In this document: positions 28,671 to 34,686 of the stretch, piece after piece
How positions within the stretch are numbered: the first letter of the stretch is position 1
Layout of the letters: each line of letters opens with the position of its first letter
Assembly: GCF_015354055.1 (NCBI RefSeq)
Contig: NZ_JACHTM010000002.1
Coordinates: 682,001 to 746,000, forward strand
Source: Thermaurantiacus tibetensis
GTDB lineage: Bacteria; Pseudomonadota; Alphaproteobacteria; Sphingomonadales; Sphingomonadaceae
DNA: 64,000 nucleotides
Reading direction: 5' to 3'
Notes under the pieces: model-generated
What the model was told of the DNA's origin: nothing
The model's input: only the letters and a program-made list of their open reading frames with translations
Database searches by the model: none
Position numbers and translations under genes: made by a program

Positions 28671-28699
28671 TTGCCGAATCCCGGGGAACGGACTAGGGT
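28671..28699 (+). promoter_or_regulatory. Candidate promoter of mrcA, giving a leaderless message
   Basis: TTGCCG (28671-28676) and TAGGGT (28694-28699) are spaced by 17 bases. The mrcA ATG is at 28706, seven bases after the -10, so transcription should begin at or next to the ATG. No ribosome-binding site precedes that ATG, consistent with a leaderless transcript. Confidence 0.45.
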
Positions 28700-28705
28700 G
28701 CGGCC

Positions 28706-31171
28706 ATGCACGCGCCCGATCGGCCCGCCCGCTCCGCCCGCGGCCGCTGGCTCCGCCGGCTCGCGGTGGCCGCCGCGGCGCTCCTCGTGGTGGGCGCCGT
28801 CGCCGCCGGCCTCCTCTGGGCCACCCTCTTCCGCAACCTGCCCGATGCCGCGCGGCTCGCCGCCTACCAGCCGCCGCTTCCCACCCAGATCCGCAGCAGC
28901 ACCGGCGAGCCCCTCTTTGCCTTCGCCCGCGAGCGCCGCATCTTCCTCCCCTACGAGGAGATCCCCCAGGTCGTCGTCCACGCCTTCCTCTCGGCGGAAG
29001 ACAAGACCTTCTTCTCCCACGGCGGCCTCGACTTCCCCGGCATCGCGACGGCCATCGTCACCAACATCCGCGGCCTCTTCTCAGGCCAGTCGCGCCCGGT
29101 CGGCGCCTCCACCATCACCCAGCAGGTCGCCAAGAACCTGCTTCTTTCGAACGAGGTCACCCTCACCCGCAAGCTGCGCGAGGCGGTGCTCGCCCGCCGC
29201 ATCGAGGAGATCCTGACGAAGGAGCAGATCCTCGAGCTCTACCTCAACGAGATCTTCCTCGGCCGGAACGCCTATGGAGTCGAGGCCGCGGCCCGCACCT
29301 GGTTCGGCAAGCCGGCCGCCGAGCTCGCCGCGCACGAGGCCGCCTTCCTCGCCAGCCTCCCCAAGGCCCCCTCCGCCTTCGATCCCCGCCGCAACTACGC
29401 CCGCGCGCTCGAGCGCCGCAACTGGGTGCTGGGCGAGATGGCGGCGAACGGCTGGCTCCCGCGCCAGGATCTCGCCCGCCTTCGGGCCCTTCCCATCCAG
29501 GTTGCCGCCGAGCCGCGCGCCACCGCCAACGTCGCGCCCTACGGCCGCGACTTCATGGAGGAGGTCCGCCGCCAGCTCATCGCCCGCTTCGGCGAGACGG
29601 CCGCGGACGGCCCCAACAGCCTCTACGCCGGAGGCCTCTGGGTCCGCACCACCATCGACCCCGCAATCCAGAAGGCGGCCGAGAAGGCGCTGCGTGACGG
29701 CCTCGTCCGCTACGATCGGCTGCGCGGCTGGCGCGGGCCTGCCGCCACCATCGACCTCGGCGACGGCTGGCCCGCACGCCTGCGCGCGCTCGACCTTCCC
29801 GTCGGCTACGAGAGCTGGCGCGCCGCCGTCATCCTCGCCCGCACCGGCGGCGGCTTCCGCCTCGGCTTCGAGGACGGCTCGACGGGCACCATGTTCGCCG
29901 GAGACGCCATGATGTCCCGCGGCGGCGTCCCCGCCCACCAGCAGCTGAAGCCCGGTGACGTCGTCCCCGTTGCGCCCACCGGCGCCGGCAGCTGGGGCTT
30001 GCGGCAGATCCCGCTCGTCTCCGGCGCCCTCGTCGTCCAGGAGGCCCACAGCGGCCGCGTCCTCGCCATGGTCGGCGGGTTCGATTCGCGCGGCGCCAGC
30101 TTCAACCGCGCCACCCAGGCGCTGCGCCAGCCCGGCTCCGCCTTCAAGCCCTTCGTCTACGCCGCCGGCCTCGAGGCCGGCATGACGCCGGCAAGCCTCG
30201 TCTCGGATGGCACCTTCTGCGTCTACCAGTCGGCGCGGCTGGGGCGGAAATGCTTCCGGAACTTCGGCGGCGGCTCGGCGGGCCTCCAGACCATGCGCTG
30301 GGGCCTCGAGCAGTCGCGGAACCTCATGACGGTGCGCATCGCCGCCCAGACCGGCATGGACAGGGTGGTCAAGCTCGCCAGGGACCTCGGCATCGGCGAC
30401 TACCAGCCGGTCCTCGCGATCGCGCTCGGCGCCGGCGAGACGACGCCCATGAAGCTCGTCAACGCCTATTCCATGCTGGTGAACGGGGGGAAGGAGATCG
30501 AGCCCGTCGTCTTCGACCTCGTCCAGGACCGCAACGGCCGCCCCATCTTCCAGGCCGACACCCGCCGCTGCCCCGGCTGCCGCGCGCCCTGGAAGGGCCA
30601 GGCCATGCCGCAGCCGGTCGACACCCGCCGCCAGGTCCTCGACCCGCGCACCGCCTACCAGGTCGTCCACATGCTCGAAGGCGTGGTCGAGCGCGGCACC
30701 GCCACCCGCCTCAACAACCTCGGCGTGCCCTTGATGGGCAAGACCGGTACCACGACGGGTCCGAAGGACGTCTGGTTCGTCGGCGGCACGTCCGACATCG
30801 TCGCCGGGCTCTACATGGGCTTCGACCGGCCGCAGAACCTCGGCGGCTGGGTCCAGGGCGGCAATGTCGCCGTCCCCATCTGGCGCGACTGGTACACCGC
30901 GACCTACGCCGAGGACCCGCCCGAGCCCTCGCCCTTCCTCGCGCCTGCCGGAATCCGCATGGTCCGCATCGACCGCCGCTCGGGCCGGCGCGTCTTCGGC
31001 GTGTGGCCGTCCGATGCGCCCAAGGCCGCGGTCATCTGGGAGGCCTTCAAGCCCGAGACCGAGCCGCGCCGCATCGTCGGCCCGCCGCCGCCGCCCCCGC
31101 TTGCCGCCGGCGCCGGCCGCGCCATCCGCACCGACCGCGACTTCCTCGCCGAGCATGGGGGCATCTACTGA
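28706..31171 (+). CDS. mrcA: Penicillin-binding protein 1A (transglycosylase/transpeptidase)
   Basis: This 821-residue bifunctional enzyme polymerises and cross-links peptidoglycan. A single membrane anchor spans about 17-37 (LAVAAAALLVVGAVAAGLLWATLF). The GT51 domain (65-240) has SAEDKTFFSHGG (catalytic Glu near 97), GASTITQQVAKNLLLSNE, RRIEEILTKEQILELYLNEIFLGRNAYGVEAAA. The transpeptidase domain has SAFK near 476, SRN near 535 and KTGT near 679. The tail is Pro-rich. Length is typical of alphaproteobacterial PBP1a. It is divergent from cobA by 121 bases. Confidence 0.96.
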   Translation: MHAPDRPARSARGRWLRRLAVAAAALLVVGAVAAGLLWATLFRNLPDAARLAAYQPPLPTQIRSSTGEPLFAFARERRIFLPYEEIPQVVVHAFLSAEDKTFFSHGGLDFPGIATAIVTNIRGLFSGQSRPVGASTITQQVAKNLLLSNEVTLTRKLREAVLARRIEEILTKEQILELYLNEIFLGRNAYGVEAAARTWFGKPAAELAAHEAAFLASLPKAPSAFDPRRNYARALERRNWVLGEMAANGWLPRQDLARLRALPIQVAAEPRATANVAPYGRDFMEEVRRQLIARFGETAADGPNSLYAGGLWVRTTIDPAIQKAAEKALRDGLVRYDRLRGWRGPAATIDLGDGWPARLRALDLPVGYESWRAAVILARTGGGFRLGFEDGSTGTMFAGDAMMSRGGVPAHQQLKPGDVVPVAPTGAGSWGLRQIPLVSGALVVQEAHSGRVLAMVGGFDSRGASFNRATQALRQPGSAFKPFVYAAGLEAGMTPASLVSDGTFCVYQSARLGRKCFRNFGGGSAGLQTMRWGLEQSRNLMTVRIAAQTGMDRVVKLARDLGIGDYQPVLAIALGAGETTPMKLVNAYSMLVNGGKEIEPVVFDLVQDRNGRPIFQADTRRCPGCRAPWKGQAMPQPVDTRRQVLDPRTAYQVVHMLEGVVERGTATRLNNLGVPLMGKTGTTTGPKDVWFVGGTSDIVAGLYMGFDRPQNLGGWVQGGNVAVPIWRDWYTATYAEDPPEPSPFLAPAGIRMVRIDRRSGRRVFGVWPSDAPKAAVIWEAFKPETEPRRIVGPPPPPPLAAGAGRAIRTDRDFLAEHGGIY

Positions 31172-31195
31172 ACCGCCGTCAACCGCCCGCAGCGC

Positions 31196-31224
31196 TTGGC
31201 AGCTCCCGCCCCGCTGGCTAGACG
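31196..31224 (+). promoter_or_regulatory. Candidate promoter of the pssD operon
   Basis: TTGGCA (31196-31201) and TAGACG (31219-31224) are spaced by 17 bases. The predicted start of transcription, about 31231, coincides with the ATG (31232) of a 17-codon reading frame that ends inside the pssD start codon. Confidence 0.45.
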
Positions 31225-31231
31225 CAGCCGC

Positions 31232-31285
31232 ATGCTCCGCCCGGCCCCGCTCCGCCCGGCGCGCCTGCGGCCGACGCGCCCATGA
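31232..31285 (+). CDS. Possible 17-residue leader peptide coupled to pssD
   Basis: ATG at 31232 opens a 17-codon frame coding MLRPAPLRPARLRPTRP, and its TGA overlaps the pssD ATG (ATGA at 31282). The position directly after a -35/-10 pair suggests leaderless translation, with ribosomes handed to pssD. The peptide is only Arg, Pro, Leu, Ala and Thr with four Leu-Arg-Pro units, so ribosome pausing could matter. In GC-rich DNA such frames arise by chance; the overlap and promoter geometry are the only support. Confidence 0.3.
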   Translation: MLRPAPLRPARLRPTRP

Positions 31286-31764
31286 GCGGCAGCCCCCGCG
31301 TCCTCGCCGTCGCCTCCGCCGGCGGCCACTGGATCCAGCTGCTCCGGCTCGCCCCCGCCTGGGACGGCTGCGAAGTCGCCTACGCCACCACCTCGGCAGA
31401 CTTCCGGGACCATGTCGCCCGTCTCGCCGCATCCCGCGGCCAGCCCGCACCCGGCTACCACGTCCTCACCGATGCCAACCGCTGGCAGAAGCTCCGCCTC
31501 CTGCGCCAGGCCGTCGAGGTTCTCCTCCTCCTCCTCCGCCTCCGGCCCGACGTCATCGTCACGACCGGCGCCTCGGTCGGCTACTTCGCCATCCGCTTCG
31601 GCCGCCTCCTCGGCGCGCGCACCCTGTGGCTCGACAGCATCGCCAACGCGAAGGAGCTCTCCCTCTCCGGCGCCCGCGCCGGCCCCATCGCCCACCTGTG
31701 GCTCACCCAGTGGCCCGAGCTCGCCCGGCCCGGCGGCCCCCGCTACGAGGGCCAGGTCCTGTGA
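31282..31764 (+). CDS. PssD/Alg14-like glycosyltransferase subunit
   Basis: This 160-residue protein is the membrane-anchoring partner of a two-part GT-B glycosyltransferase that builds exopolysaccharide or lipid-linked sugar. Alg14 features are VLAVASAGGHWIQLLRLAPAW at the N terminus, the hydrophobic VEVLLLLLRLRPDVIVTTGASVGYFAIRFGRLLGARTLWLDSIANAKELSLSG, and WLTQWPELA near the end. The catalytic nucleotide-sugar part is the next gene, which starts within its stop (GTGA). In rhizobia the PssD/PssE pair adds glucuronic acid; the sugar here is unknown. Confidence 0.88.
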   Translation: MSGSPRVLAVASAGGHWIQLLRLAPAWDGCEVAYATTSADFRDHVARLAASRGQPAPGYHVLTDANRWQKLRLLRQAVEVLLLLLRLRPDVIVTTGASVGYFAIRFGRLLGARTLWLDSIANAKELSLSGARAGPIAHLWLTQWPELARPGGPRYEGQVL

Positions 31765-32249
31765 TCTTCCTCACCGTCGGCACCCAGGAGCCCTTCGACC
31801 GGCTGGTCCGCGCCGTCGACCAGTGGGCGGCCACGGCCACCATGCCGGTCTTCGGCCAGCTCGGCGCGCTCACGCCCGCGAGCTACCGCCCGGCCCACAT
31901 GGAATGGGCCGAGTTCCTCCCCGCCCGCCTCTACGAGGAGAAGGTCGCCGCCTGCCGGCTCATGGTGGCGCACGCCGGCATGGGCTCGATCATCTCCGCC
32001 CTCACCGCCATGAAGCCCCTCCTCATGCTGCCGCGCCGCGCCAGCCTCGGCGAGCACCGGAACGAGCACCAGCTCGCCACCGCCGAGAAGTTCGCCGGCC
32101 GGCCGGGCCTCCACGTGGCAGCCGACGAGCGGGAGCTTCCCGCCCTCCTCGACCGCCTCCTCGCCGCGCCAGAGGCGCCCGAGGCCGCGCTTTCGGCCAC
32201 CGCCAGCCCCGAGCTCATCGCCGCCGTCCGCCGCTTCATCCTCGGCTGA
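31761..32249 (+). CDS. PssE/Alg13-like glycosyltransferase subunit
   Basis: This 162-residue protein is the UDP-sugar-binding half of the PssD/PssE pair. It opens with IFLTVGTQEPFDRLVRAVDQWA, then has AACRLMVAHAGMGSIISALTAMKPLLMLPRRASLGEHRNEHQLATAEKF, the GT-B C-terminal nucleotide-sugar motif. The start is GTG overlapping the pssD stop by 4 bases, so the subunits are co-translated. It should act at the inner face of the cytoplasmic membrane in surface polysaccharide assembly. Confidence 0.9.
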   Translation: MIFLTVGTQEPFDRLVRAVDQWAATATMPVFGQLGALTPASYRPAHMEWAEFLPARLYEEKVAACRLMVAHAGMGSIISALTAMKPLLMLPRRASLGEHRNEHQLATAEKFAGRPGLHVAADERELPALLDRLLAAPEAPEAALSATASPELIAAVRRFILG

Positions 32250-33844: not shown

Positions 33845-33948
33845 CGGCGCCGCCCGCGGCAGCAGGCCGCATCGGGGGGCCGCCCCGACGCCGTCCGGCA
33901 ACGGCCCGCGGCTACCGCCCCACGCAGTGTCTGTCAGGGGGCCGTCAC

Positions 33949-34686
33949 ATGAAGCTCGCGCCCGCTGCCGCTCTCGCCACCTTCCTCGCCGCGCCCGCAG
34001 CCGCGCTTCCCTTTGCCTTTGCGTCTGCCACTGGCAGCACCACGGTCGCCCACGGGGCGACCGCCGCCGGCCTCACCCTCCTCAGCTTCGCGCCCGTCGA
34101 GATCCTCGACTTCGGTCTCGCCGACGGCGCCGGCGGCAGCGCGGCCTCCGCCGGCGGAGTCTTCGCCGCCGGTGGCTTTGCCGGGCTCGCCGAGTGCGCG
34201 GCGCTCGCCCAGCCGGCCTACGGCGTCCACGCCGCCACCGCCGGCCTCGAGGCCGCCCCCCTCCTGCGCTTCGTGAACGAGGGCGCGGCAGACGCCCCCC
34301 TCGCCTTCCGCCTTGCCGGCAGCATCGACCTCTCGGTCCAGACCGCGGGGCGGCTGGCCTTCGCCAACGCCTTCGGCACCTGGACCTTCCGCTTCGCTGG
34401 AACCGGAGTCTCCGGCACGCTTCCGGCAAGCTTCGGCGACTCCGCCGACCTCTCCGGCGGCTTCTTCACCGGCCCCTTCGGCGCCGATTCACTCTCGCGC
34501 GCCGCCAGCCTCGAGCTCGCCCTGGTCCTCTCCCCCGGGGCCGTGCTCGAGATCGCCCGGGCAAGCTTCGCCGCGAGCTTCGCCTACGCCTTCGTCCCCG
34601 AGCCCGCCACCTGGGCCATGTTCGTCGCCGGCTTCGGCATCGTCGGCGTCGCGCTCAGCCGCCAGCGCCGGCCGCTTTCGGCCTAG
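33949..34686 (+). CDS. PEP-CTERM sorting-domain protein
   Basis: This 245-residue exported protein has a signal peptide (MKLAPAAALATFLAAPAAALP) and a beta-rich Ala/Gly/Phe core without Cys pairs apart from one Cys. Its C-terminal sorting signal is VPEPATWAMFVAGFGIVGVALSRQRR. It would be cut and handed on by an exosortase during export of surface matrix. The mature domain matches no family I recognise. It lies 104 bases after the photolyase and 62 bases before the acyl-CoA synthetase, probably with its own promoter, which I could not place. Confidence 0.85.
   Translation: MKLAPAAALATFLAAPAAALPFAFASATGSTTVAHGATAAGLTLLSFAPVEILDFGLADGAGGSAASAGGVFAAGGFAGLAECAALAQPAYGVHAATAGLEAAPLLRFVNEGAADAPLAFRLAGSIDLSVQTAGRLAFANAFGTWTFRFAGTGVSGTLPASFGDSADLSGGFFTGPFGADSLSRAASLELALVLSPGAVLEIARASFAASFAYAFVPEPATWAMFVAGFGIVGVALSRQRRPLSA

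Follow-up and report, generated by a model that had tools for sequence, protein, structure and literature searches.

The window, by which we mean the whole 64,000-nt stretch analysed, comes from Thermaurantiacus tibetensis (assembly GCF_015354055.1, contig NZ_JACHTM010000002.1, positions 682,001–746,000 of the forward strand; genome G000 in our set). Within it a gene for a PBP1A-family penicillin-binding protein is followed on the same strand by two glycosyltransferase genes (Table 1). The gap between them contains a –35/–10 pair with 17-bp spacing and a 17-codon frame, MLRPAPLRPARLRPTRP, whose stop overlaps the start of the first glycosyltransferase gene as ATGA (31282–31285), both of which an earlier note on this sequence had described correctly. 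Seven nucleotides separate the –10 element from the ATG at 31232, and an in-frame TTG at 31196 would lengthen the leader frame to 29 codons. The second glycosyltransferase gene begins with a GTG that overlaps the stop of the first. The names pssD and pssE, given in the earlier note, hold only as a statement of relationship: the second protein lies above the cut-off of PF04101, but both score below the curated equivalog cut-offs of the corresponding NCBIfam models (NF041549 and NF041548), the first being related to the PssD/Cps14F family of NF041549 yet short of its threshold, and we therefore label them pssD-like and pssE-like (pssD and pssE for short below). No clear Shine-Dalgarno sequence was seen by eye in the 25 nt upstream of pssD. 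Downstream of pssE lie genes for a deoxyribodipyrimidine photolyase-related protein (PF04244; 32330–33841) and then for a protein with a PEP-CTERM motif (33946–34683).

Table 1. Features of the PBP1A-pssD-pssE locus (window coordinates)
Feature	Position	Strand	Basis or remark
Candidate PBP1A promoter, TTGCCG-N17-TAGGGT	28671–28705	+	6 nt before ATG, leaderless type; genome site G000:C11:710671
PBP1A-family penicillin-binding protein gene, upstream neighbour	28706–31171	+	Pfam PF00912, PF00905, PF17092; TIGR02074 above cut-off
PBP1A-pssD gap, 110 nt	31172–31281	+	
–35 element TTGGCA	31196–31201	+	
17-nt spacer between –35 and –10	31202–31218	+	
–10 element TAGACG (GCTAGA context)	31219–31224	+	Composition of the –10 at 58 genome sites
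Predicted transcription start	31231–31232	+	Spacing, and peak at 6–8 nt before ATG in the genome
17-codon frame MLRPAPLRPARLRPTRP	31232–31285	+	Stop TGA 31283–31285 overlaps pssD ATG 31282–31284 as ATGA; probably not a selected gene
Direct repeat of 12-mer GCTCCGCCCGGC, 15-bp-spaced	31234–31260 (copies 31234–31245, 31249–31260)	+	Encodes the first two Leu-Arg-Pro units
pssD-like glycosyltransferase gene, Alg14-like half, 160 aa	31282–31764	+	NF041549 61.2 bits (cut-off 110); PF08660 25.2 (cut-off 27)
pssE-like glycosyltransferase gene, GT28 C-terminal half	31761–32249	+	PF04101 37.7 bits (cut-off 22); NF041548 75.4 bits (cut-off 120)

To place the locus among its relatives, pssD homologues were collected from five genomes of the genus (L001–L005), from samples of 199 and 397 family genomes, which overlap (L006–L031 and L074–L077 respectively), and from a collection of named genomes, 23 of whose 34 loci were used. 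Left out were L029–L031 (33–35% identity) and ten further match places of the 199-genome sample, and in the named collection L039, where the match begins at the end of the locus, together with the more distant L049, L050, L053–L057 and L059–L061. Removal of three duplicates (L032, L033 and L034) from the resulting 55 loci left 52 for comparison of upstream regions; L007 and L051, apparently from a single genome, were both retained, which brings the number of genomes represented to 51.

The –35 and –10 elements have the TTGNNN/TANNNN form with a 17-nt spacer of alphaproteobacterial sigma-70 (sigma-A) promoters, and it is probable from their sequence and recurrence that pssD-pssE has a real promoter of its own of the ordinary sigma-70 type. 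Within 150 nt upstream of pssD, TTGGCA-N17-TA was found in four of the 52 loci (the window, L006, L062 and L074), while 400 rounds of shuffling gave 0.07 on average and never more than one; in this count the pattern itself was taken from the window and three of the four matches had been noticed by eye beforehand. A looser pattern (TTG[AG]C, spacer of 16–18, TA) occurred in seven of the 52 loci against 1.2 expected, a number reached in none of 400 rounds. Of the three other TTGGCA loci, two come from genomes of a different genus in the family and one from a Sandarakinorhabdus MAG; by eye, each lacks an ATG where transcription is predicted to start, and their upstream DNA shares TTGGCACC (all three loci) and TAACGG (two loci), with little else alike. 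A sigma-54 promoter was considered and rejected, GG-N10-GC not being seen by eye at the TTGGCA sites.

The same elements might instead be a chance resemblance, with pssD transcribed from PBP1A or from further upstream and the leader forming just part of a spacer. The –10 matches the E. coli consensus at only three of six positions, and the sigma-70 scan lists nothing at this site. Matches of such grade number two on the forward strand of the window (the pssD site included) and one on the reverse, while 20 shuffled windows yielded about 0.7 per strand. TTGGCA-N17-TA is also missing from 48 of the 52 loci, and the gap cannot be aligned with that of the syntenic relative described below. Against this reading, which we regard as improbable, the pattern recurs before pssD in excess of shuffles and the –10 agrees with the pattern seen across this genome.

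That pattern bears also on the claim of the earlier note that transcription starts at the leader ATG, which is plausible given the recurrence of the promoter before pssD and the abundance of similar sites, the start itself being predicted from spacing. In 464 kb, TTG-N20-TA-N4-N(d)-ATG was matched 7, 3 and 3 times at d = 6, 7 and 8, compared to 16 matches across 18 other distances between 0 and 20. Over the whole T. tibetensis genome, d = 6–8 gave 58 matches against 6 for a reversed-pattern control, and leaderless starts thus appear to be common here. At 51 of the 58 sites the frame is 100 aa or longer (or runs off the locus), and codon-position GC marks 50 of these as coding-like; three shorter frames match Pfam GatC, GapR and DUF1674, so that 53 sites appear gene-like, on a criterion that judges the frame and not whether its ATG is the true start. 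The window site has d = 7; of the 22 others at that distance, 19 begin frames that are coding-like and 100 aa or longer, and a further one is the GatC site.

Five of the 58 sites have no convincing gene: the window leader, L130, L144, L152 and L153. This number is close to the six matches of the reversed control, indicating that ATGs which do not begin genes occur at about the level expected by chance. L153 was examined as a possible second case of a short cistron coupled to a gene (21 codons, with a TGATG overlap with a 311-aa ORF) and was rejected, as an in-frame ATG lies upstream of the ORF start behind the Shine-Dalgarno-like GGGAGGGAG. This second ATG stands 20 nt past the leaderless one and its frame encodes an Asparaginase_2 protein, with which the leaderless ATG is out of frame; L153 is an example of an accidental ATG at a predicted start. 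The leaderless geometry therefore makes the start site in the window credible, yet does not make a gene of the 17-codon frame.

Turning to the frame itself, the peptide consists of three Leu-Arg-Pro units and one Thr-Arg-Pro unit, and not of four Leu-Arg-Pro units as first described. When the 110-nt gap was shuffled with dinucleotides preserved and the pssD start kept fixed, 8.7% of 5000 shuffles contained a frame of 17 or more codons that started with ATG and stopped at the overlapping TGA, rising to 20.2% with the same overlap once GTG and TTG starts were also allowed. The composition is less usual. The two strands of the window contain 1075 stop-free 17-codon frames that begin with ATG, the leader included; only two of them have at least 13 Arg, Pro or Leu residues, and nine, again counting the leader, have a tripeptide repeated three times. 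The exact 12-mer repeat GCTCCGCCCGGC was reached in 44 of 3000 shuffles, and when the window was divided into 1162 overlapping segments of 110 nt, 27 had a repeat as long or longer. The repetition of the peptide resides in the DNA. GC content by codon position (ATG left out) is 0.94/0.81/0.94 in the leader compared to 0.74/0.52/0.92 in five nearby genes; the low second-position GC typical of genes is missing from the leader, as far as 16 codons can tell. A dispersed repeat element in the gap was considered and rejected: each of the five genomes of the genus has between 7 and 19 matches to the gap DNA at an E-value of 0.1 or below (the gap's own copy included), and those beyond its own copy are short and spread over many places.

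The earlier note took the repeated units as a sign that codon- or Pro-dependent pausing on the leader tunes translation of pssD and pssE, a form of attenuation. Such units are unusual in a random frame, and two further points lean the same way, namely the rarity of the last codon, CCA (1% of 130 Pro codons in five nearby genes), and its position directly 5' of the leader stop. The remaining codons are common ones, however, including those for arginine (CGC and CGG, 54% and 31% of 213), and the peptide contains no Pro-Pro. No intrinsic terminator-like site was found at the locus, in a scan that covers intrinsic terminators and that Rho-dependent or translational control would escape. The fold of the leader region is within the range of shuffles (z +0.30; 110 of 200 shuffles fold as well), and no Rfam family reached its gathering score, the one sub-threshold match lying on the other strand. 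A sugar transferase has, moreover, no evident tie to the supply of Arg or Pro, and the frame is absent from the syntenic relative. Attenuation is thus unsupported, and we consider it very improbable.

Conservation of the frame, whose breakage in close relatives the earlier note had named as grounds for refutation, does not favour a leader peptide either. Ten genomes besides that of the window match pssD at E up to 1e-45. With a DNA query across the PBP1A-pssD junction, G004 alone gave a single match spanning both genes; G002 has the two parts on one contig with about 770 nt between them, and in seven genomes (G001, G003, G104, G165, G213, G250 and G283) the PBP1A-side match and pssD are on different contigs, the place in G314 not being listed. 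G004 is thus the one syntenic relative found, with 79% identity in pssD, and it is the nearest genome among those available, at 82% completeness. Its PBP1A-pssD gap is 79 nt long and its pssD begins ATGG; both the leader frame and the stop-start overlap are absent, no out-of-frame ORF ends near the pssD start, and an ATG in frame with pssD, 63 nt before its start, is a possible longer start rather than a leader. The two gaps do not align better than shuffled sequence (384 of 500 shuffles score at least as high). At this identity and completeness, and with gaps that do not align, the comparison says little on short-term conservation of the frame.

Across the 52 loci, a stop codon overlaps the pssD start in the register of the window in 23, and several loci have a short ATG frame at the overlap (6, 9, 13, 31, 32 and 34 codons), so such frames are not rare. 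Among the frames listed for these loci, none outside the window that ends on the pssD start bears Leu-Arg-Pro, and the short overlap peptides are by eye mutually unlike, except for the L007/L051 pair and an AFA ending in common with L074. In G002 a polysaccharide deacetylase gene (Polysacc_deac_1, PF01522; L033 2249–3004) lies between PBP1A and pssD, its stop overlapping pssD by ATGA in the same register and its tail reading ...AVRPAARPA. In L004, L007 and L077, pssD directly follows or overlaps what we take to be an acyl-CoA dehydrogenase gene. The upstream partner of pssD therefore differs between relatives.

The arrangement in G002 raises the possibility that the 17-codon frame is the worn tail of a deacetylase gene that once stood between PBP1A and pssD and ended in the same ATGA. 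Besides the shared register and the Arg/Pro-bearing tail, a long frame upstream of 1501 with the same ATGA overlap in L076 is consistent with this origin, as is the lack of any match to the G002 deacetylase in the window's genome. The same search also gave no match in G001 and G003. G004, the closest relative (82% complete), however, shows neither a deacetylase match nor the frame, so the loss would seem to be older than the lineage of the window. Similarity between the DNA of the leader and the G002 tail is within the range of shuffles, 92 of 500 of which reach it. The case is suggestive in register and not significant in sequence, and we consider such an origin doubtful. Equally doubtful is a combined history, in which a deacetylase that delivered ribosomes to pssD through the ATGA was lost and a leaderless short cistron at the promoter took over delivery, whatever its peptide.

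Use of the frame as a short cistron, with or without such a past, is a more serious alternative, although still an unlikely one. 70S ribosomes would read the 17 codons of an mRNA beginning with AUG and start again at the pssD AUG, the sequence of the peptide being irrelevant. The frequency of leaderless geometry in the genome, with most such sites gene-like, and the position of the window site at the 7-nt distance favour this reading, as do the ATGA overlap and the want of a clear Shine-Dalgarno sequence before pssD, which means that delivery of ribosomes by the leader would make sense and leaves room for coupling. In E. coli, by the published account, some translation was seen for most of the 5'-terminal uORFs tested, and mutating them affected some downstream genes (Beck et al. 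2016, PMC4965119). The same account includes a contrary case in rhaB: its uORF of 8 aa, which likewise has an ATGA overlap, reached 2.2% of the translation of the downstream gene, and mutation of its start changed nothing downstream (PMC4965119). The frame is, moreover, not found in G004 or the other loci examined, and no second short cistron with a stop-start overlap is left among the 58 sites after inspection.

On balance we think it likely that pssD-pssE has an ordinary promoter of its own, that the leader AUG and its 17 codons are an unselected by-product, and that neither sensing nor attenuation is involved; a worn gene tail or a translated short cistron could each hold together with such a promoter, and their chances overlap with its own. 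A sigma-70-type promoter in the gap behind PBP1A would drive both genes, with transcription most likely from 31231–31232 and the 5' end of the mRNA at the AUG or one base before it. The AUG and 17 codons would then simply reflect a 5' region that is short, GC-rich and carries a local near-duplication at 15-bp spacing, and any ribosomes using the AUG would produce a peptide without meaning, their passage to pssD over the ATGA overlap being passive at most. What the sequences show directly is the anatomy of the site, the recurring promoter pattern before pssD, the excess of leaderless geometry in the genome and the lack of the frame in the other loci examined; where transcription starts, whether the frame is translated and that it has no effect are inferred. 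Several observations count against the view that the frame is probably an accident: 53 of 58 sites of the same geometry look like gene starts, so that an ATG in this position is usually a true start; pssD lacks a clear Shine-Dalgarno sequence; the Arg/Pro/Leu bias and the repeated tripeptide are rare among ATG-started frames; and few shuffles reach the 12-mer repeat.

The locus cautions against taking Arg/Pro-rich frames in GC-rich DNA for leader peptides, and shows that the promoter half of such a finding can stand while the peptide half fails. If the AUG is used, it would offer a clean natural test of a leaderless mini-ORF supplying a gene that lacks a Shine-Dalgarno sequence.

Literature searches on leader-peptide attenuation of exopolysaccharide glycosyltransferases and on leaderless genes in Sphingomonadaceae gave, judged by titles, nothing that bears on this locus. 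An alphaproteobacterial parallel is trpL of Sinorhizobium meliloti, a leaderless mini-ORF before a gene, for which translation of the 14-aa peTrpL, part of the tryptophan attenuator, is reported (PMC10117765); the window leader differs in that no terminator was found, no related amino acid is evident and the frame was not found in relatives. Termination-reinitiation has been described at ATGA overlaps of the same stop-start form, in work that treats overlapping gene pairs rather than a 17-codon uORF (PMC6728339). The E. coli uAUG/uORF mRNAs, as described, have an AUG at or near the 5' end that opens a short uORF, out of frame with the main gene that follows (PMC4965119). The window locus likewise has such a uORF, of 17 codons, before the main start, with the 5' end predicted; the E. 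coli main genes have Shine-Dalgarno sequences and their translation was measured, whereas pssD has no clear one and its transcript start is a prediction. The promoter has its parallel in Zymomonas mobilis, whose sigma-A promoters, mapped by RNA sequencing, are reported to have the form TTGNNN-17-TANNNN, most often with a 6-nt discriminator, and where 119 of 2,675 pairs of transcription start site and gene are leaderless, with a leader of 5 nt or less (PMC7566282); the putative pssD promoter, recognised by sequence, fits that form.
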